Assembly: GCA_017859655.1 (NCBI GenBank)
Contig: JAFMMO010000006.1
Location: forward strand, 1-43,094
Direction: 5' to 3'
Length of the DNA stretch: 43,094 bases
DNA from: Pseudomonadota bacterium
GTDB taxonomy: Bacteria; Planctomycetota; UBA8108; UBA1146
The notes beneath the pieces are model-generated. The model ran no database searches. It saw only the letters and a program-made list of their open reading frames with translations, and was not told the origin of the DNA. Shown here in pieces: positions 24,204-34,223 of the stretch. A program made the translations under genes and the position numbers. Every line of letters starts with the position of its first letter. The stretch's first letter is position 1.

Positions 24204-25016
24204 ATGCGCTCCCGAGCCCCACTCTCCCGACCGCAGGTGACGAGGATCACGCTCACCACTGCGCTCCTCCTCACCCTGATCACCCCGGCGCTGCAGGGGC
24301 AGAACACCCCGCCGCCGCCCCCCCAGCAGACCCTCGAGGCGACGGTCCCGTCGGTCACGGTGGAGCCGGGTGCCCTGTTCACCCTCCCGGTCCTGCTCAG
24401 CGATCCCCTGCCGATCCCCGGGTTCCTCTTCCTCGCGGACACCAATCCGACGCAGCTGCAGTTTCTCTCGATCGCCCCCGGCGCGGGGATCGAGGCGCAC
24501 ACCACCGCCAACGGAGCGCCACCCGTCTGCGATCTCTTCGCCGACCCCGGGTCCTGCTTCGCGCTCTGGCAGTTCCTCTGGCCCCTCTACGATGTGGCGG
24601 TGTACGGCGAGGAGCTCCTCCTGATCACCGTGATCGCTCCCCCGACGGCAGGGACCTACCCGATCGACTGGTTCCTGGGTGCCGACACCGGCGAGTCCGC
24701 CGGCGGGACCGCCCTCATCACCGTCGCCGCGCCCCCGGACGCGGCCACCGACTTCGAGCGGGGTGATGTGAACGATGACGGGGCGTGCAACCTCGGCGAC
24801 CCCATCGCCCTCCTCGGCCACCTCTTCGCGGGACTCCCCGCGCCGAACTGCTACGACGCGGCGGATGTGGATGACGACGGCGTCGTGGGACTGGCCGATG
24901 CCGTCAACCTCCTCTCCGCCGTCTTCGGGACCGGCTTCCCCCTCGATGAGAGCTGCCAGCCCGATCTGACCGAGGACTCTCTCGGCGCCTGCGAGAGGGC
25001 CGGCTGCGCCCCCTGA
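24204..25016 (+). CDS. Secreted cohesin-like/dockerin-like protein
   Basis: ATG 24204 has GGAGG six bases upstream. The product is 270 residues with a signal peptide ending near residue 33. The middle part (about 40-190) resembles the beta-sandwich of cohesin-like domains ('PGALFTLPVLLSDPLPIPGF'), and the C-terminal part has two dockerin-like calcium loops ('RGDVNDDGACNLGDPI' and 'ADVDDDGVVGLADAV'). It ends with a Cys-containing tail, 'CERAGCAP'. Function is unknown; it is probably a cell-surface structural or adhesion protein. A 19-bp perfect hairpin follows the stop. Confidence 0.8.
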   Translation: MRSRAPLSRPQVTRITLTTALLLTLITPALQGQNTPPPPPQQTLEATVPSVTVEPGALFTLPVLLSDPLPIPGFLFLADTNPTQLQFLSIAPGAGIEAHTTANGAPPVCDLFADPGSCFALWQFLWPLYDVAVYGEELLLITVIAPPTAGTYPIDWFLGADTGESAGGTALITVAAPPDAATDFERGDVNDDGACNLGDPIALLGHLFAGLPAPNCYDAADVDDDGVVGLADAVNLLSAVFGTGFPLDESCQPDLTEDSLGACERAGCAP

Positions 25017-25832: not shown

Positions 25833-25980
25833 GCGATCGACCGCTGCCGAACGGATCGTCGCGGCACGCCCCGCTGCAAGACGGCTCGCTGGCCCGGGAC
25901 CCACCGACGCATCGGCTGCCCGCCTTCAGATCCCCAGACCCCAGATCTCCAGACCCCAGATCTCACGGGTGAGGCGACTC
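25831..25980. repeat. 15-bp degenerate tandem repeat filling the intergenic space
   Basis: Ten successive 15-bp steps run from the LON-N stop codon to the anti-sigma stop codon. The first units end in CCGCT/CTCGCT like the 3' end of the LON-N gene itself. The last three (25926-25940, 25941-25955, 25956-25966) are almost identical CCAGATCTCCAGACC-type units. The whole 147-base gap seems to be built from this repeat. Confidence 0.65.
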
Positions 25981-26819
25981 TAGCCTCGGGGAATCGTCGC
26001 GGTGGCGAGGAAGGGTCCGTCGGAGACGGGGACGCCACCCTTCGGCTCGAGGGTGATCACGAAGACCCCCGGGCGATCGACGACCAGGGCCGCGTCGATG
26101 GGGATCGTCTGCATCTCCGCCGCAGCCGCGACATCGAACACCCCTCCGTCGACCGGCTGGGCGTGGCCCCGATCCTCATCCACGATCCAGAGCTGATACT
26201 GCTCCACTGCAGGATCGTTCGCGGGAACTCCCGTGAGGCGGAGATAGCCCTCCTGATCGCGGTCGCACCAGATCACCTCCCCGCCGATGCCGGGGAGGCT
26301 CTCTCCCTCGACCGCGCGCCACTCCGCCCTCGCCAGCTCGGCGGGGGAGCGACGCTCGAGGAGCGCGGCGCAGGCTCGCTCCGGGGAGCTCTCCCCTCGA
26401 TTCTCGAGGAGCATGCCGACCGTGAGCCCCACGAGGAGCGCGGCGGCGAGGCCGAGCCAGCGGGAGGGGACGCGTTCGGCGGCTGGACGGGAGGACAAGG
26501 CCCCCGCCGGCCCCGGGGTCTGACGGGAACGCTGGGACCGGACGCAGATCCGTCCGCTCGCGGCGATCCGTTGGCGCAAGTGCACGGGGAGCGGCTCGAC
26601 AAGCTCGGGGAACTCCTGCTGGTGAGACACCTCGAGGGCGGCGACCGTGCGATCGTAGGCATCGGGATCGACCTCGGGATGCGCCGCGAGGAGACCCTCG
26701 AGCTCGAGCCACTCGTCGTCGGAGAGGGCCTGCGTCGCGCGATCCGCGAGCAGCTGGTCCAGACGGGACTCGAGTGGATCCGCCTCGGGGGAGCTGCGAT
26801 CGTCGGGAGGGATGTTCAC
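25980..26819 (-). CDS. Anti-sigma factor, RskA-like C-terminal domain
   Basis: ATG 26819 overlaps the stop of the sigma gene (ATGA), so the two are translationally coupled. The product is 279 residues. The N-terminal cytoplasmic part (about 1-118) is acidic and helical and is the likely sigma-binding region; it has no HxxxCxxC zinc motif. A single transmembrane helix spans about 121-138. The C-terminal extracytoplasmic domain (about 175-275) resembles RskA, with 'YQLWIVDEDRGHAQPVDGG' and 'FVITLEPKGGVPVSDGP'. It is expected to hold the ECF sigma factor at the membrane until a signal causes release, often by regulated proteolysis. Confidence 0.9.
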   Translation of the reverse strand: MNIPPDDRSSPEADPLESRLDQLLADRATQALSDDEWLELEGLLAAHPEVDPDAYDRTVAALEVSHQQEFPELVEPLPVHLRQRIAASGRICVRSQRSRQTPGPAGALSSRPAAERVPSRWLGLAAALLVGLTVGMLLENRGESSPERACAALLERRSPAELARAEWRAVEGESLPGIGGEVIWCDRDQEGYLRLTGVPANDPAVEQYQLWIVDEDRGHAQPVDGGVFDVAAAAEMQTIPIDAALVVDRPGVFVITLEPKGGVPVSDGPFLATATIPRG

Positions 26820-27376
26820 TCTCCACCCCCCTTGCCGAGGTGTGGATCCTCGCCGAGGAGCTCCCGGATCCGCATCAGGCCCCGGCGCGCGTGCGTCTTC
26901 ACGGTGCCCAGGGGGAGCCCCAGCTCGCCGGCGATGTCGCTGTGGGAGAGCCCGCGGAAGATGGAGAGGTCGAGGACCTCCTGCTGCTCCGGCCGCAGCC
27001 GGGTCATCATCATCTGGACGCGGGACGCCTCATCCGCGATCTCGACCTCGTCCTTCTCACGAGGCGCGGCGGGGTCGTTGATCTCGGAGATGACCTCGGA
27101 CTTCGGCTCGCGGCGCTTCTTGCGCCAGCGGTCGATCACGCGTCGCCGCGCGATCATCGCGATGAAGGTCTCCTCGGCGGCGACGCTCGGATCGAAGCGC
27201 GCCGAGCTCGACCAGAGGTCGATGAAGACCTCCTGCACCGCATCCTCGGCGTCGTCCACATTGCGACAGAGGCGCCGGCAGATCGTCCAGACAAGCCCGC
27301 CGTACCGGTCCATGCACTCCTGGACCGCGCGCTCATCGCCGCTGGCGATCCTCTGCAGGAGGCTCCGCTCGTTCAC
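26816..27376 (-). CDS. ECF-family RNA polymerase sigma factor
   Basis: The start is taken at GTG 27376, which gives 186 residues, the normal ECF length; the frame is open to ATG 27532, but the extra 52 residues are a low-complexity Arg/Gly region. Sigma region 2 spans about 20-88 with 'DAVQEVFIDLW' at 46-56, which melts and reads the -10 element. Region 4 spans about 120-175 with the helix-turn-helix 'SDIAGELGLPLGTVKTHARR', which reads the -35 element. It is followed by its membrane anti-sigma factor. The neighbouring photolyase and B12-binding genes on the same strand suggest control of a light or photo-oxidative response. Confidence 0.93.
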   Translation of the reverse strand: MNERSLLQRIASGDERAVQECMDRYGGLVWTICRRLCRNVDDAEDAVQEVFIDLWSSSARFDPSVAAEETFIAMIARRRVIDRWRKKRREPKSEVISEINDPAAPREKDEVEIADEASRVQMMMTRLRPEQQEVLDLSIFRGLSHSDIAGELGLPLGTVKTHARRGLMRIRELLGEDPHLGKGGGE

Positions 27377-27528
27377 CGATCTCTTTCCTTCTTCTCCGGA
27401 CCGCCGGTCCCCGGTCTTGCTCCCCCCGGCGTCTCCGCGGTTCCGACCCGCGGTCTTTCCGAGGGAGGGGCGTGGGCGGGAACGCTGCCGACCCGAGGCG
27501 CCGAGGCTTTCCGATGGACCCGCGCCGC

Positions 27529-29028
27529 TCATCCCGAATGCTCTCGGATGTACCCGCGCACACGCACCTTGCGCGCCGTGTTCTCCGAGCTCATGTAGCG
27601 GATCTTACCGAAAATCGGACGCTCCGGGCCCCAAGCCCGATCGAATCGTCCGAAGATCCAGCTGATCGCGCAGTAGGAGTTGGGGTCGCGGCCGTCGAGG
27701 GCGTACTTGTTGTTGAGGTGGAGCAGCGTGGCGTAGGCCTCCTCCGGGCTCGCCGACCAGTGAAGCACCTTCTTCCCCCACAGCATCCGCAGGTAGTTGT
27801 GGATCATCCCATGCTCCCGCAGCTGGTGCTGCGCGGCGTTCCACAGCGGATCGTGGGTCCGCCCCTCCTCGAACTCCTCGAGGGAGTAGCAGTGCTCCCG
27901 CTCATCCGCGCGGTGCTCGTCAAGGGTCCGCCGAGCCCACTCCGGCAGCGTGCAGTACTGGTCATAGTCCTCGACGAGGGAGCAGAGATTGAATCCGAGC
28001 TCCCGCCAGGTGATGAGCTGGTCGAGGAAGCCCTCCGCCGCCTCGGACATCCCCCACCACCCGCGCCGCGAGCCATCGGTCTTCGAGCCGAGGAAGCCGG
28101 GGTTCCAATCCTCCAGCGTGACGATCCGCTCGAAGAGCTCGGTGCTGGAGAGGTGCCCGAAGTGGAGCCAGGGCGAGAGGCCGCTGGTGACCGGGTCCTC
28201 CGGGTGATTTCGGGAGTCCGCGTAGCGGGGAAACCGCTCCGCGAGGAAGGTCTCCATATGGGCGAGGGCGGCCTGCTGGCCCCCACGGAGCTCGACCGGC
28301 CCGACGGCGTGATCGATGGGGAGCTCTCCGATCCAGGCGGAGTCCGCCAGCTCCTCCCTGCTCACCGCGGGCCAGCGGGAGAGGACCTCGGGAGGGATCT
28401 GCGCGGGAGGGAGATCGGGGCGGGCATCGAGGGGGGAGAGGGCGGCCCGCTCCTCGAGGTGAGGGGGCAGCTCCTTCTGGAGGAACCGGCGGAGGGAATG
28501 GGCCGTGCCGTGCGCCCGATCCGCCGCCGCCCGGGGAAGGAGTCCGTTCCCATCGACCCGCTCGAGGAGGACATCGAGCCGCTGCTCCGCCGCGGCCTGC
28601 ATCCGGGGGATGAAGAAACAGGGGTAGTCGTCGGTCACGACGACGCACGCCCGGGCGGCGAGGGACTCGAGCAGACCCGAACCATCCCCTTCGCCCCGCT
28701 CGACCCAGGGGTGGTAGGTAATCCCTGCGGCCGCGAAGGCGCGCGCCTGGTCCGCCATCCCCTCCACCACGAAGCGATGAAAGCGGTCGGAGGCGTGGGG
28801 GTAGGCGACCCGCAGCGGCTCGAGGACGAGGAGCGGCTTGCCGAGGGCGCGAGCCCAGGCGAGGGAGCGCTCGAGGGTCGGGTTCGCGCTCGTGCGTCGG
28901 GAGGCGACCATCCAGTGCAGGACGAAGTCCCGCTCCGGGCGGACCGGAGCCTCGCTCGGAAAGACCCGGATGGCGGGGACACCCCCGGGATCGGGGAGTG
29001 ATGCTCCCAGCGGCGTGGATGCAGACAT
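27529..29028 (-). CDS. Class II-like CPD photolyase
   Basis: The start is taken at ATG 29028, because GGGAGGG lies just upstream on its strand; ATG 29052 is the alternative. The product is 499 residues. The N-terminal antenna domain begins 'FVLHWMVASRRTSANPTLER', and the C-terminal FAD-binding half has 'LHLNNKYALDGRDPNSYCAI' and 'RPIFGKIRYMSSENTARK', the typical class II closing segment. Photolyases use blue light and FADH- to split cyclobutane pyrimidine dimers. The antenna part is somewhat unlike textbook class II sequences, so it may belong to a divergent subgroup or a cryptochrome-like one. The gene lies between the B12-binding gene and the ECF sigma gene, all on the same strand. Confidence 0.88.
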   Translation of the reverse strand: MSASTPLGASLPDPGGVPAIRVFPSEAPVRPERDFVLHWMVASRRTSANPTLERSLAWARALGKPLLVLEPLRVAYPHASDRFHRFVVEGMADQARAFAAAGITYHPWVERGEGDGSGLLESLAARACVVVTDDYPCFFIPRMQAAAEQRLDVLLERVDGNGLLPRAAADRAHGTAHSLRRFLQKELPPHLEERAALSPLDARPDLPPAQIPPEVLSRWPAVSREELADSAWIGELPIDHAVGPVELRGGQQAALAHMETFLAERFPRYADSRNHPEDPVTSGLSPWLHFGHLSSTELFERIVTLEDWNPGFLGSKTDGSRRGWWGMSEAAEGFLDQLITWRELGFNLCSLVEDYDQYCTLPEWARRTLDEHRADEREHCYSLEEFEEGRTHDPLWNAAQHQLREHGMIHNYLRMLWGKKVLHWSASPEEAYATLLHLNNKYALDGRDPNSYCAISWIFGRFDRAWGPERPIFGKIRYMSSENTARKVRVRGYIREHSG

Positions 29029-29174
29029 GAGCCCTCCCAACGGGTTGGTCATGGAGTTTCGACTCCGGGAGCGATCCGGATTCGGGGGGGCTGGAAAGGG
29101 AAGGCGAGCCGTCGACGGCGGGGACTCTGGCCCGGGTGACCCCAGCGAGGTGGGATCGCAGCCGGGGAGCTGCT

Positions 29175-29222
29175 GCCCCGGGGAGACTCAGCCCCGGGGA
29201 GACTCAGCCCCGGGGAGGCTCA
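29175..29222. repeat. 16-bp tandem repeat over the B12 gene stop
   Basis: Units at 29175-29190, 29191-29206 and 29207-29222 are identical except for one base in the third. The third includes the stop codon of the B12-binding protein. Each unit contains the palindrome CCCCGGGG and, on the minus strand, a TGA. Confidence 0.9.
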
Positions 29223-30350
29223 GTTTCGTGGAGGCAGGCCGACGAGCTCCCGGGCGACCCGGACTGCGCTCTCGACATCGTTCGCCTCGGCGGACGCTCC
29301 GATCTCCACGCCATAGCCGGGGATCCCGGAGAAGGCGCGCCCCCCAACGAGGATCGGGAGCGAGGCGGTCGCGGGATCTTCCCGCAGATCGGCGATGAGC
29401 CGCTCCGCGCGGTCCAGGTGGGTCACGAGGCTGGTCGAGATGGCGATGAGATCCGCGCCGAAGTCGAGCGCCCCACGACGGAGATCCCCGCCCGGCACGC
29501 TGGACCCCAGGTGCACGACCCGCCAGCCATCCATGGTGAAGAAGTCGCTGACGATGCGGATCCCCAGCTCGTGGAGCTCCCCCTCGACCGCGACGGTGAC
29601 GATCGTCTTGCCGGTCGGCTCCTTGCGCGGAAGGTCGAGATAGAGGCGGGAGATCGCGAGGGAGGTGGTCGCCGTCGCGAAGTGCTCCTCCGCCACGTGC
29701 ACCTCGCCGAGGAGCCAGAGCCGGCCGATCTCCGCGAGGGCCGGGAGGAAGACCTCCTGATACACCTCAGGAATGCTGAAGCCACCCTCCTCCCGCGCGG
29801 CATCCACGAGAGACAGCGCGCGGTCCCTCTCCCCCTCGAGGAGCGCCATGAGGTACCGGGCGGCGTACTCGCCGCGACCGGTCTCGACCCTCAGGGAGGT
29901 GGGAGGCTCGTGACCGGCGGTCCCCAGGATGCCGAGCGAGGCCTCGATCGCCGCGGCGGCTGGGCCTCCGACCTCCTCCGGCATCTCGGAGCGGAGGGTC
30001 TCGGCGAGGGATCGGAAGACGAGGGCGACCGAGTCGACCCCCATGCCGCGGGCGTGGAAGGCCCAGTGCGACCAGAGCACATGGTTCTCGAAGATCTCCG
30101 GGCGCCCGGTCCGGATCGAGGCCGCGAGGTGACCGAGGTGGGTCTCCGCGGTCGCGCGCCACTGTCCGAAGGCATCCTGGGCCCCGGGCACCGCCGTGCC
30201 CTCCTCCGAGGTGCTCGTGAGGGTGGTGGGGCCGCCACTCTGAATCTCCTCCAGAATCCGGCGCGCCGTCGCGGAGGCGAGGCCGGGGGCGGAAGAGCGC
30301 AGCAGGGTCGCTGCGAAGCGGCCGGGGGTCGGGGATCTCAAGTCGGACAT
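29220..30350 (-). CDS. B12-binding photoreceptor-like protein (CarH-type sensor module without MerR domain)
   Basis: ATG 30350 has GGAGTGA five bases upstream. The product is 376 residues. The helical 'cap' and Rossmann domains of cobalamin-binding proteins occupy about 155-370. The cap has W212 followed after nine residues by E222-H223 ('LWLLGEVHVAEEHF'), the W-x9-E-H signature that places the upper adenosyl ligand in CarH/LitR light sensors. H260 in 'GELHELG' is the expected lower cobalt ligand. The N-terminal 150 residues are helical ('FENHVLWSHWAFHARG') and show no MerR helix-turn-helix, so it is not a direct CarH repressor. Its neighbours are a photolyase and an ECF sigma/anti-sigma pair. 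I infer a light-responsive regulator acting through protein contacts. Confidence 0.9.
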   Translation of the reverse strand: MSDLRSPTPGRFAATLLRSSAPGLASATARRILEEIQSGGPTTLTSTSEEGTAVPGAQDAFGQWRATAETHLGHLAASIRTGRPEIFENHVLWSHWAFHARGMGVDSVALVFRSLAETLRSEMPEEVGGPAAAAIEASLGILGTAGHEPPTSLRVETGRGEYAARYLMALLEGERDRALSLVDAAREEGGFSIPEVYQEVFLPALAEIGRLWLLGEVHVAEEHFATATTSLAISRLYLDLPRKEPTGKTIVTVAVEGELHELGIRIVSDFFTMDGWRVVHLGSSVPGGDLRRGALDFGADLIAISTSLVTHLDRAERLIADLREDPATASLPILVGGRAFSGIPGYGVEIGASAEANDVESAVRVARELVGLPPRN

Positions 30351-30366
30351 GCTCACTCCGCGTGAC

Positions 30367-30441
30367 GGCGCCCTCAGGATCGGCGCCCTCGAGATCGGTG
30401 CCCTCGGGCAAGAGGCCCCAGAGGACGGAGCCCTTGGGTCC
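30367..30441. repeat. 15-bp degenerate tandem repeat upstream of the B12 gene
   Basis: Five units of 15 bases (30367-30381 to 30427-30441) follow the pattern GGCGCCCTCnnGATC with increasing divergence. They lie between the B12 start codon and the divergent promoter region. Confidence 0.7.
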
Positions 30442-30513
30442 CGCCGGAACTGCGGGAGTCGCCGCCCGGTTGGTGGCACCTTCGGTCGGACCTTGGCATC
30501 CTCGACCGTACGA

Positions 30514-30540
30514 GGAAACGGAGCCTTCGTCGCGACGATA
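30514..30540 (+). promoter_or_regulatory. Candidate ECF-type promoter for the DUF523-DUF1722 gene
   Basis: GGAAAC (30514-30519) and CGATA (30536-30540) are separated by 16 bases, which is the layout of many ECF-sigma promoters. Transcription would start near 30548, 64 bases before ATG 30612. If real, it could be a target of the ECF factor encoded 3 kb away. The evidence is pattern only. Confidence 0.35.
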
Positions 30541-30611
30541 CACCATTCGGGACTCTACCCGGGTCCGATTCAGCGAGGTGGGAAAGGACCTCCCCGCCTC
30601 GGAGGGCAGGC

Positions 30612-31664
30612 ATGACGGAGACGAGCGGCGTATCGGAGCAAGTCCAAGGGGCGTCGGCGGATGAAGAGATCCGGATCGGGATCTCCGCCTGCCTCCTCGG
30701 GCAGGAGGTCCGCTTCGACGGGGGACACAAGCGCGACCGGTTCGCCACCGAGACCCTTTCTAAATTCGTTCAATTCGTCCCCGTCTGCCCCGAGATGGAG
30801 ATCGGGCTCGGAACCCCACGCGAGACGCTACACCTCGAGGGGGAAGAGAACGCGATCCAGCTCGTCACCACTCGGACGCGCCGGAGCCTCACCGACACGA
30901 TGAACCGCTGGGCGCAGTCCCGTGTCGAGCAGCTGGAGCGCTCCGACCTCTGCGGGTTCATCCTCAAGAAGGACTCCCCCTCCTGCGGGATGGCGCGGGT
31001 CCGCCTCTTTCCGTCGGGGGGGCAGGGCGTGCCCTCGAGGGAAGGGGTCGGGCTCTTCGCTCGAGCCCTCATGGAGCAGCAACCCTCCCTCCCGATCGAG
31101 GAGGAGGGGCGACTGCAGGACCCGAAGCTCCGCGAGCACTTCTGCGAGCGGGTCTTCGCATACCGGCGGCTGAAGACCCTCTTCGCGGGGGCCTGGGAGA
31201 TCGGGGGGCTCCTCGCGTTTCACGCCCGGGAGGAGCTGCTCCTGCGCGCACACGACCCCGTCGGACTTGTCGAGCTCGATCGCCTGCTCGCGTGCGCCCG
31301 GGGGCTCGAGGAGGAGGAGTTGGAGAGGCGGTACCGCGAGGGGTTCATGGCGAGCCTGCGCCGCCCGGCGACTCGCGGCACGGTGACCTCGGTCCTCCAG
31401 CACGCCATCCGATCCCTGGCTGATCCCCTCGACGAGGACTCCCGGCAGGAGCTGCTCGCGCGGATCGCCGAGTATCGACGCGGGATCATTCCCCTCCTCA
31501 TCCCGGTGACCCTCCTCGCCCACCACGCTCGCCAGCACCGGATCGAGCGTCTGCTCGGACAGACCTTCCTCGAGCCCCACCCCCGTGAGTTGCTGCTGCG
31601 GGATCCTGTGGGTTCGGAAGGCGGGTTCGGAGAAGGGGCGGCCGAGGAGGAGGGAGATCCCTGA
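30612..31664 (+). CDS. DUF523-DUF1722 fusion protein (YbgA-like)
   Basis: ATG 30612 has GGAGG six bases upstream. The product is 350 residues. The N-terminal DUF523 domain (about 20-165) shows 'IGISACLLGQEVRFDGGHKR', 'PVCPEMEIGLGTPRE' and 'ILKKDSPSCGM'. The C-terminal DUF1722 (YbgA) domain (about 190-310) has 'FAYRRLKTLFAGAW' and 'LLIPVTLLAHHARQH'. The molecular function is unknown, but the family is repeatedly found beside photolyases; in Escherichia coli ybgA lies next to phr. The gene is divergent from the B12-binding gene and followed 128 bases later by a DCC oxidoreductase gene. It is therefore an expected member of a light or UV-response locus. Confidence 0.92.
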   Translation: MTETSGVSEQVQGASADEEIRIGISACLLGQEVRFDGGHKRDRFATETLSKFVQFVPVCPEMEIGLGTPRETLHLEGEENAIQLVTTRTRRSLTDTMNRWAQSRVEQLERSDLCGFILKKDSPSCGMARVRLFPSGGQGVPSREGVGLFARALMEQQPSLPIEEEGRLQDPKLREHFCERVFAYRRLKTLFAGAWEIGGLLAFHAREELLLRAHDPVGLVELDRLLACARGLEEEELERRYREGFMASLRRPATRGTVTSVLQHAIRSLADPLDEDSRQELLARIAEYRRGIIPLLIPVTLLAHHARQHRIERLLGQTFLEPHPRELLLRDPVGSEGGFGEGAAEEEGDP

Positions 31665-31792
31665 AGAATCGGAAACGAAGGAAGAGCAGAGGACGGCAGA
31701 GGCCCCGACCGCGAATCCGCCCCTCCCGCCACCTCGAAGTTCTTTCCCGAGCGAGGTCTCCCATCCCTCGCCCTGCCGGAAGCGAGAGAGCC

Positions 31793-32257
31793 ATGACCCA
31801 CCCTGCCCCGAACTCCGCTGAGGACTCCGCTGTGACCCCGGGAACGGCCCCCGAGGTGGAGGTCTTCTTCGACGGAGGCTGCTCCCTCTGCTCCCGGGAG
31901 ATCGCGCTGCTTCGGAGACTCGACCGCCGTGATCGCGTGCTCTGGACCGACATCGACGCCCCGGGCTTCGATGCCTCCCCCCTCGGGACCGATCGGGACA
32001 CCCTGATGCGGCGGATCCACGGGCGCCTCCCCGGCGGGGAGTGGATCGAGGGGGTGGAGGTCTTCCGCCGGACATGGTCCGCCATCGGGCTCGGCTGGTT
32101 GGTGCCGCTCACCCGGCTCCCCGGCGTCCGCCACCTCCTTGATGGGTCCTATGTCCTCTTCGCCCGCTGGCGCTACGCCCGTCGCGCCCGAGCCGGCGCC
32201 TGCCCCCTCCCGAATCCGCAGGCCGCCCCTTCGGGCGACCCCTCGCACTCCCCTTGA
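31793..32257 (+). CDS. DCC-family thiol-disulfide oxidoreductase (DUF393)
   Basis: ATG 31793 follows a GGAAGCGAGAG sequence. The product is 154 residues. The family motif FFDGGCSLC places the two active cysteines at C30 and C33, and 'RLPGVRHLLDGSYVLFARWRYARR' closes the typical DUF393 segment. The family is named for its DxxCxxC motif and predicted to have a thioredoxin-like redox role. It is often found near photolyases and DUF1722 genes. It is probably co-transcribed with the DUF523-DUF1722 gene. A bidirectional hairpin terminator lies 28 bases after the stop. Confidence 0.9.
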   Translation: MTHPAPNSAEDSAVTPGTAPEVEVFFDGGCSLCSREIALLRRLDRRDRVLWTDIDAPGFDASPLGTDRDTLMRRIHGRLPGGEWIEGVEVFRRTWSAIGLGWLVPLTRLPGVRHLLDGSYVLFARWRYARRARAGACPLPNPQAAPSGDPSHSP

Positions 32258-32680: not shown

Positions 32681-32840
32681 CGGTCTGCTCTTCCGGTCGG
32701 GATCCCGGGCGAGGAGACCGGGATCGGGGCTTGCGAGGAGCGCTTCCGGCGCGGGGCTCGTGGAGCACTCCCGCTGCCGTTTGTTGTCTCTGCAACGGAT
32801 TTCGCCCGAGCGAGAGGTCTGGATTCGCAACCCCACAAGA

Positions 32841-32910: not shown

Positions 32911-33999
32911 TCAGGGGCAACTGAAGGAGTCGCAGGTCAGCGAGTCGCTCGTCGGATCGTCCCCGCAGGCGGGGGATGGGGCCGGCAGGCCGGGGCTCCC
33001 CGGCACGAAGAGCGCGTTCAGGAGGGTCACCGCGTCCGCGATGTTGACCCCCCCGTCGTCATTGAAGTCGGTCGCGTCCTGACAGGTGGAGGCGAGCGAG
33101 CCGGGGACGAAGAGCTGGTTCAGGAGGAAGACGGCATCCGCGATGTTGACCCCGCCGTCGTCGTTCGCATCCCCCCGGACGAACTGGCCCGTTCCGGGCG
33201 GGCAGGGGGTCGGGAGCTCGAAGAGGGCGATGTCGCTCACCGGGTGGTCCGCGGTCCCGAGGAGGGTCGCCACACCAGCGGTGGTGACCTCGTAGAGGTT
33301 GCTGGTGGTCGTTCCCCTCTGGCTCCAGATGAAGGCATCAAAGCCGAGAGACCACGCGAGCCCGGTGACCTCCGACCCCACGAGGAGCGGGTCCGGCGTG
33401 ATCGAATCGATGGTGCAGGCCAGGGGAGCCCCCGTCGCCTGCGCCTCGAACACCACGTTCGTCACCCCGGAGGCGTGGTACATGCGACTCTCGCCCGGGT
33501 GGTACCCGATCGCCTCCCCGTCGTCCCCGTTCCCGAAGAGGCAGAGGTCCGTCGGAGCCCCCGTGGTCTGGTTCAGGATGCAGAAGGAATTCGAGGGGTT
33601 GGCGCTGTCGGCGGAGACCGCGTTCAGGGTCCCGTCCGGCTGGAACTCGAGGGCGATGAAGTTGACGAGGGTGCTCCCGATCACGGTCGCGATCGCGCTC
33701 GCGTCGTCGTACTTCACGAGGAACGGCACCCCGGGGTTCGAGGGGACGTTCAGGTAGGCGAGCATGAAGATCTCCCCGGTCGTCGGGTGGACCGCGACTC
33801 CGGTGATCCCGGTGACCGGCGTCCCCACATCGACGAGGATCGTCTGGTCCACTCCCATTCCGTCCAGGTTGACCCGACGGAGGAGATTGTCCTGCTCGGA
33901 GACGGTCCAGGCGTAGGAGACATAGCAGTTCTGCGCCTGCAGACCCGCCGGGGCGAGCAGGAGGAGCGCGAGGGCTGCGATGGCAAGGAATCGAGTCAT
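32911..33999 (-). CDS. Secreted beta-propeller-like protein with dockerin-like repeats
   Basis: ATG 33999 has AAGGAGA eight bases upstream and is followed by a signal peptide (about 1-22). The product is 362 residues. The middle part reads like a repeat-propeller/TolB-like fold ('GVAVHPTTGEIFMLAYL', 'NFIALEFQPDGTLNAVSAD'). Two dockerin-like calcium loops follow ('RGDANDDGGVNIADAVFLLN' and 'FNDDGGVNIADAVTLLN'). The last residues form a tail, 'LTCDSFSCP', shared in pattern with three other proteins here. Function unknown; probably cell-surface or extracellular. Confidence 0.82.
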   Translation of the reverse strand: MTRFLAIAALALLLLAPAGLQAQNCYVSYAWTVSEQDNLLRRVNLDGMGVDQTILVDVGTPVTGITGVAVHPTTGEIFMLAYLNVPSNPGVPFLVKYDDASAIATVIGSTLVNFIALEFQPDGTLNAVSADSANPSNSFCILNQTTGAPTDLCLFGNGDDGEAIGYHPGESRMYHASGVTNVVFEAQATGAPLACTIDSITPDPLLVGSEVTGLAWSLGFDAFIWSQRGTTTSNLYEVTTAGVATLLGTADHPVSDIALFELPTPCPPGTGQFVRGDANDDGGVNIADAVFLLNQLFVPGSLASTCQDATDFNDDGGVNIADAVTLLNALFVPGSPGLPAPSPACGDDPTSDSLTCDSFSCP

Positions 34000-34223
34000 G
34001 CGAGGGTCTCCTTCCGCAGGCCGGGGGGCCCGCCAGACCGGGAGTTGCTCCTGCGAAGGCTGGCGGCCCGGGGCCGCGACGGTGGGTCTCCCCGGGGGCC
34101 ATCGAAGGCGAGGCCGCAGGGAGCCGGGCATTCAGCCCGATTCTACCGCCTCTCGGCACCGGATCAGCCCCATAGGGGAGGATCGAGCGGCAGGATCAGG
34201 CCCGGGAGACCGGGCGGGGATCC

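Follow-up and report, generated by a model that had tools for sequence, protein, structure and literature searches.

A photocobilin-like B12 receptor linked to a SigK/RskA-like sigma/anti-sigma pair in a probable light and photooxidative-stress regulon

The stretch of DNA analysed here (contig JAFMMO010000006.1 of assembly GCA_017859655.1; 43,094 nucleotides, hereafter the window) contains a group of six genes that is probably a regulon for light or photooxidative stress. It would be governed by an extracytoplasmic function (ECF) sigma factor that, together with its anti-sigma factor, resembles the SigK/RskA pair, and a photocobilin-like B12 receptor would be part of the circuit. An earlier note had placed a B12-binding protein, a photolyase, an ECF sigma factor and a membrane anti-sigma factor on the minus strand, with a DUF523-DUF1722 gene and a DCC gene running divergently; gene and domain calls put all six where it had them.

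25980..26819, minus strand: RskA-like membrane anti-sigma factor (RskA_C above the gathering score)
26816..27376, minus strand: ECF sigma factor, SigK/RpoE-ChrR-like (Pfam sigma region 2 and region 4 domains; NCBIfam and PDB matches; tree)
27529..29028, minus strand: class II-like cyclobutane pyrimidine dimer photolyase (TIGR00591; match to the M. mazei class II enzyme)
29220..30353, minus strand: photocobilin-like B12 photoreceptor, 377 amino acids (an alternative longer open reading frame from 30479 is possible)
30612..31664, plus strand: RudS (TudS/DUF523 plus DUF1722; PF04463 and PF08349), predicted tRNA 4-thiouridine desulfidase
31793..32257, plus strand: DCC1-like thiol-disulfide oxidoreductase (PF04134, 2.7e-25)

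The association of the receptor with the sigma factor was followed through 392 genomes of the phylum, using cut-offs of E<=1e-20 for photocobilin homologues and E<=1e-40 for sigma orthologues. A photocobilin homologue is present in 42 genomes. The sigma orthologue occurs in 29 of these 42, as against 21 of the 350 others (Fisher p 1e-20, uncorrected for phylogeny). When 37 of the photocobilin genomes, including the window's own, were searched for the sigma factor, it was found to adjoin the photocobilin gene in 18, whereas chance would give about 0.003 per genome. In particular, among the relatives' loci with fetched flanks plus the window, all sigma matches above 25 bits (17 loci, the window counted) are at most 1.7 kb away from the photocobilin gene and none lies farther out. 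The sigma-linked photocobilins span families f1, f3, f35, f45, f49, f53, f70 and f81 of a photocobilin tree with about 30% identity among its members, and the linkage takes several gene orders; no other gene family is linked to photocobilin as often as the sigma/anti-sigma pair. The comparison of gene neighbourhoods that the earlier note proposed therefore shows conserved neighbours.

The second line of evidence is a promoter motif. A de novo dyad search in the sequences preceding 15 fasciclin genes of relatives produced TGMATCC-N16-CGAA, and over all loci 11 of the 18 strict matches fall within the 3% of strand-bases that lie 5' of regulon gene types (p 2e-13). A weight matrix built only from the fasciclin sites of other loci was run over both strands of the window; its two highest scores lie 5' of the photocobilin and photolyase genes.

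30542..30575, minus strand: predicted ECF promoter of the photocobilin gene, TGAATCG-N16-CGAA (17.2 bits, best in the window, p 0.003)
29054..29087, minus strand: predicted ECF promoter of the photolyase-sigma-anti-sigma unit, CGAATCC-N16-CGAAA (17.0 bits, second, p 0.007)
31709..31742, plus strand: a less strong ECF promoter candidate for the DCC gene, CGAATCC-N16-CGAA (14.0 bits; p 0.005 within its region; scores of this size arise about twice per shuffled window)

The matrix finds no site upstream of RudS (p 0.23) and none directly upstream of the sigma gene. By prediction, then, the sigma factor would transcribe the photolyase-sigma-anti-sigma unit and the receptor gene. The photolyase gene of the congener carries TGAATCC-N16-CGAA, and photocobilin genes located far from any sigma gene (loci L069, L073 and L074) also bear the motif.

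Other approaches to the promoters were rejected. A direct scan with the SigK consensus CCATYC-N-CGAWTC gave 4 matches where 2-4 were expected; one of them, in front of RudS, is the photocobilin promoter site read on the opposite strand and is not evidence for RudS. A genome-wide scan with the motif returned 31 sites in the window's own genome, too many to define a regulon, and for promoter footprinting against the congener the DNA is too diverged to align usefully. Separately, we note a motif match at 32797-32830 on the minus strand (15.6 bits, GCGAATCC-N16-CGAAA). It precedes by about 115 bases a small minus-strand gene (32348 to about 32680) that fits no known family and is a possible additional regulon member.

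Judged by its domains and modelled fold, the B12 protein is a photocobilin-like receptor in which the globin comes first, the reverse of the solved photocobilins; both domain orders exist in this group (PMC10979010). Pfam places B12-binding_2 and B12-binding at about residues 160-375. The CarH signature that had been claimed for the protein stands as far as this B12 domain is concerned: all four light-signature elements are present (GxxW and EH in GxxW-x9-EH, GxxH, and GxxxP), they are invariant or nearly so across 34 relatives, and SignatureFinder ties them to light-responsive B12 proteins (PMC11796333). The W and EH of the signature are the residues that contact the adenosyl group. As a whole, however, the protein is not a CarH, since Pfam finds no MerR or other helix-turn-helix (HTH) DNA-binding domain in it and the N-terminus is a globin. 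Residues of about 1-150 form a photoglobin (bilin-type globin) domain according to both profile and Foldseek searches. When 33 relatives are combined into a profile of this region, it hits the C-terminal domain with which the solved photocobilins bind biliverdin (E 3e-11 and 3e-7); allophycocyanin is a further, weak match. Modelled alone, the domain reaches a predicted local distance difference test score (pLDDT) of 89.7, and Foldseek ranks allophycocyanin and other phycobiliproteins at the top, with biliverdin-binding smURFP and photocobilin also among the matches (template modelling scores of about 0.6-0.7, with E only 0.01-0.2). For the whole protein, AlphaFold2 gives pLDDT 93.8 and a predicted template modelling score of 0.90, and the model matches CtMerR (8jbs, 1.9e-11) and the photocobilin SasPcob (8j2w, 6.8e-10). 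The best matches of the protein are photoreceptors; corrinoid proteins and methionine synthase are also homologous. The same photocobilin architecture is fused to a histidine kinase and receiver at L067, L077 and L080, so the receptor can act as a signal input module. At L087 a B12 domain is fused to a Cro/C1-type HTH.

Use of biliverdin by the window protein looks unlikely. Asp270 of SasPcob, the key biliverdin residue, corresponds to Thr at residue 68 (SasPcob numbering offset of 6, fixed by Trp61 and Glu71-His72); Asp occupies this position in 9 of the 34 alignment rows, and the equivalent of SasPcob Trp296 is retained. AbDPcob, which is also termed a photocobilin, has His at the Asp270 position and binds biliverdin weakly (PMC10979010); the residue is therefore informative about the use of bilin, though membership of the family does not depend on it. 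Heme oxygenase is not recognisable in this genome or in that of the congener. We infer that the window photocobilin is a B12-only sensor. Note that heme oxygenase was rejected as a marker of biliverdin use, because across the 392 genomes it is not enriched with photocobilins (5 of 42 with, 39 of 350 without, p 0.8). In family f1, PF01126 heme oxygenase occurs in 13 of the 14 other members and in neither member of this genus, the two being the only photocobilin carriers of the family.

The ECF sigma factor and the membrane anti-sigma factor were both recovered as a pair, and their genes overlap by 4 bp. The nearest NCBIfam families of the sigma factor are PRK12519 (136 bits) and SigK (118.9 bits), both under their cut-offs, that of the curated SigK model being 226 bits; in the PDB it matches RpoE of R. 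sphaeroides (1.9e-19) and SigK of M. tuberculosis (2.2e-17). The redox cysteine pair 133/183 of SigK (PMC7509140) is not found in the alignment, where the shortened protein has Cys only at 22, 34 and 38, all of them away from the region of the pair. Since it falls below the curated cut-off and is without the redox cysteines, we do not file it as SigK. In the tree, all the sigma orthologues form one clade (100/99) apart from the other ECF factors of the window's genome and from the references taken from the PDB; the branches of SigK and R. sphaeroides RpoE join beside this clade in an order that the tree leaves unresolved. The anti-sigma factor scores 4.1e-09 with RskA_C, above the gathering score, and has one transmembrane-like stretch by eye. 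RskA_C was also found in 15 of 19 anti-sigma factors of relatives. A search of solved structures with the window protein, as a single sequence and as a profile, returned nothing relevant.

The photolyase is class II-like by similarity, as had been claimed: it resembles solved class II enzymes along its full length, matching that of M. mazei with E 1.4e-69 over 463 residues, though it scores under the curated class II model TIGR00591 (344 bits against a cut-off of 550). The DUF523-DUF1722 protein is RudS, a predicted 4-thiouridine (s4U) desulfidase. RudS is known to strip from tRNA the s4U that is sensitive to ultraviolet A (UVA) light, and light operons are described that contain it together with photolyase and LitR (PMC11417400); the biology of this part is known, and its setting is new. 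Both of its domains exceed their cut-offs (PF04463 1.6e-43, PF08349 1.2e-26), the TudS motifs SACLLG, CPE and SPSCG are present, and the protein matches the TudS structure 6z92; ThiI, which makes s4U, is encoded in this genome.

The congener keeps the four minus-strand genes in the window's order, from photocobilin through photolyase and sigma to anti-sigma, and has a fasciclin gene at the position of RudS. A photolyase lies near the receptor in the window and at L053, L068, L072 and L088. Neither RudS nor DCC is present at the relatives' loci, which add one or two CMAS methyltransferases and amine oxidase, DUF1365, desaturase, DUF2878 and SRPBCC genes; L072 holds nearly all of these companions within 12 kb. 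A fasciclin gene is not found in the window but is linked, with the motif, in relatives including the congener, and in some loci it stands directly before the sigma-RskA pair.

The locus shares parts with several known systems. In M. tuberculosis the sigK operon contains fasciclin, amine oxidase, DUF1365 and CMAS genes, and the SigK promoter is CCATCC-N16/17-CGAATC; the relatives' loci share this companion set, and their motif resembles this promoter. Like the window, the SigK/RskA system (ECF19) of Mycobacterium encodes the sigma factor next to an RskA_C anti-sigma factor; unlike it, the window has a sigma factor below the family cut-off and without the cysteine pair, together with a photocobilin and a photolyase. 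In Streptomyces LitR/LitS and Myxococcus CarQRS, a B12 regulator and/or an ECF sigma/anti-sigma set serves a single light response; CarH/LitR binds DNA in those systems, CarQRS is not known to be under B12 control, and to our knowledge neither includes a photocobilin. SasPcob and AbDPcob combine the same CarH-type adenosylcobalamin (AdoCbl) domain and photoglobin domain in one protein without a DNA-binding domain. The window protein differs in having the globin first, Thr for Asp270 and no heme oxygenase gene found in its genome, and in having an ECF sigma factor, an anti-sigma factor and a photolyase as neighbours. The RpoE/ChrR pair of R. capsulatus has been reported to be similar to SigK/RskA. 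The RpoE singlet-oxygen regulon of R. sphaeroides contains phrA, cfaS and the fasciclin gene RSP_1409 (PMC7074977), so that in Rhodobacter, too, an ECF sigma factor stands over photolyase, CFA-type enzymes and fasciclin; in contrast, the window anti-sigma factor is RskA-like and membrane-bound rather than ChrR, and no B12 photoreceptor is known in RpoE/ChrR. The LitR-controlled light operons of Pseudomonas join photolyase, RudS and a B12 regulator (PMC11417400, PMC9758184). These class II LitR operons thus share photolyase and RudS, alongside a B12-dependent regulator of the light family, with the window, but LitR is a MerR-type DNA-binding repressor and no ECF sigma/anti-sigma pair is found there. 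The earlier suggestion that the combination is undescribed can be kept for the photocobilin with an ECF/RskA pair, of which text searches of the literature found no description (a 2022 photoglobin paper, outside the searched text, may mention such neighbourhoods), and must be given up for photolyase, RudS and a B12 regulator.

Taken together, the parts suggest the following scheme. The sigma factor would recognise the motif and, through the shared predicted promoters, drive both the photocobilin gene and the photolyase-sigma-anti-sigma unit, and the RskA-like membrane protein, to judge from its family, would restrain it in the dark or when damage is absent. The photocobilin, which has no DNA-binding domain, would sense light in the cytoplasm by means of AdoCbl. 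Light acting on AdoCbl would break the Co-C bond and alter the receptor, which may bind the anti-sigma or sigma factor, most likely adding a light input, and the sigma factor would be released or adjusted through this contact. RudS and DCC may add light protection by removing UVA-sensitive s4U from tRNA and by thiol repair, respectively. Direct light control of the sigma factor is plausible. We hold more tentatively, at somewhat under an even chance, the specific proposal that a B12 photoreceptor free of DNA binding gates an ECF/RskA-type pair by protein contact, so that light enters a SigK-like regulon, and that by homology the ancestral trigger of SigK/RskA, including that of M. tuberculosis, is light or singlet oxygen. 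For the route from B12 to sigma factor and photolyase proposed in the earlier note, the linkage in distant relatives and the shared ECF-type motif speak in its favour; its suggestion that B12 photochemistry controls the sigma factor goes beyond them.

Several observations weigh against this scheme. Of the genomes that lack the photocobilin, 21 keep an orthologous sigma factor, which can therefore operate without it. The motif enrichment is partly circular for fasciclin, where the motif was derived, and only 7 of 39 photocobilin upstream regions reach p<0.01. The closest relative has a fasciclin gene where RudS and DCC stand in the window. Finally, cobalamin adenosyltransferase (PF01923, PF02572) was not found in this 90%-complete genome; the congener has PF01923, and the absence may be an assembly gap.

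Some of these points would suit a photocobilin that is only a target of the sigma factor, which we think less likely. Singlet oxygen or envelope damage would then free the sigma factor through the periplasmic domain of RskA, and the photocobilin would act on another partner, for example a kinase, an enzyme or a cyclic-nucleotide pathway. A sigma-type promoter on the photocobilin gene and the existence of sigma/anti-sigma pairs without photocobilin agree with this, as do the sensing of singlet oxygen by RpoE-ChrR without B12 (PMC7074977) and the steering of enzymes by known photocobilins through protein contact (PMC10979010). It accounts poorly for so tight a linkage with the sigma/anti-sigma pair, in half of the genomes and in varied gene orders, when no other family is linked as often. 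It is improbable that the B12 protein is no photoreceptor but, in connection with oxidative stress, a sensor of cobalamin status or redox state or a corrinoid carrier: the missing adenosyltransferase and the homology to corrinoid proteins and methionine synthase would fit, but the complete light signature with its adenosyl-contacting W and EH, the photoreceptors as best matches, and photolyase and RudS as neighbours do not. That the genes are adjacent by chance, or form an operon of unrelated stress genes, is very improbable even with RudS and DCC missing from the relatives' loci, because the linkage statistics contradict it for sigma, anti-sigma and photocobilin and the promoter motif is shared.

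Conservation and ribosome sites guided the choice of gene starts. For the B12 gene, 30353 is the probable start, because conservation sets in at Met43 of the listed open reading frame; 29028 is the likely start of the photolyase gene on account of the promoter site and a GGGAGG ribosome site; and the sigma gene probably starts at the GTG at 27376. Tandem 16-bp copies of CCGGGGAGACTCAGCC lie at 29162-29225, in the interval that separates the stop of the photocobilin gene from the promoter of the photolyase gene. Dockerin type I repeat proteins that look secreted flank the locus at 24204-25016 (plus strand) and 32911-34131 (minus strand), the first below the gathering score. No Rfam elements were found in the window.

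These results bear on a wider question. SigK/RskA controls the MPT70 and MPT83 antigens, and its signal is described as 'still unknown' (PMC7509140); the fasciclins of the SigK regulon are induced by light in M. kansasii, and the stimuli of that regulon 'remain obscure' (PMC9861118). If light or photooxidative stress were the trigger of the broader SigK/RskA-like type, the loci described here would agree with it. They show a related sigma/anti-sigma module in which a B12 light sensor and a photolyase have been retained across deep divergence, and this offers a concrete, testable trigger for SigK/RskA, namely light or photooxidative stress. Photocobilins, whose cellular roles are mostly unknown, gain a partner that is conserved and a regulon that is predicted, and the photocobilin-sigma module may serve as a ready-made light-controlled sigma switch.

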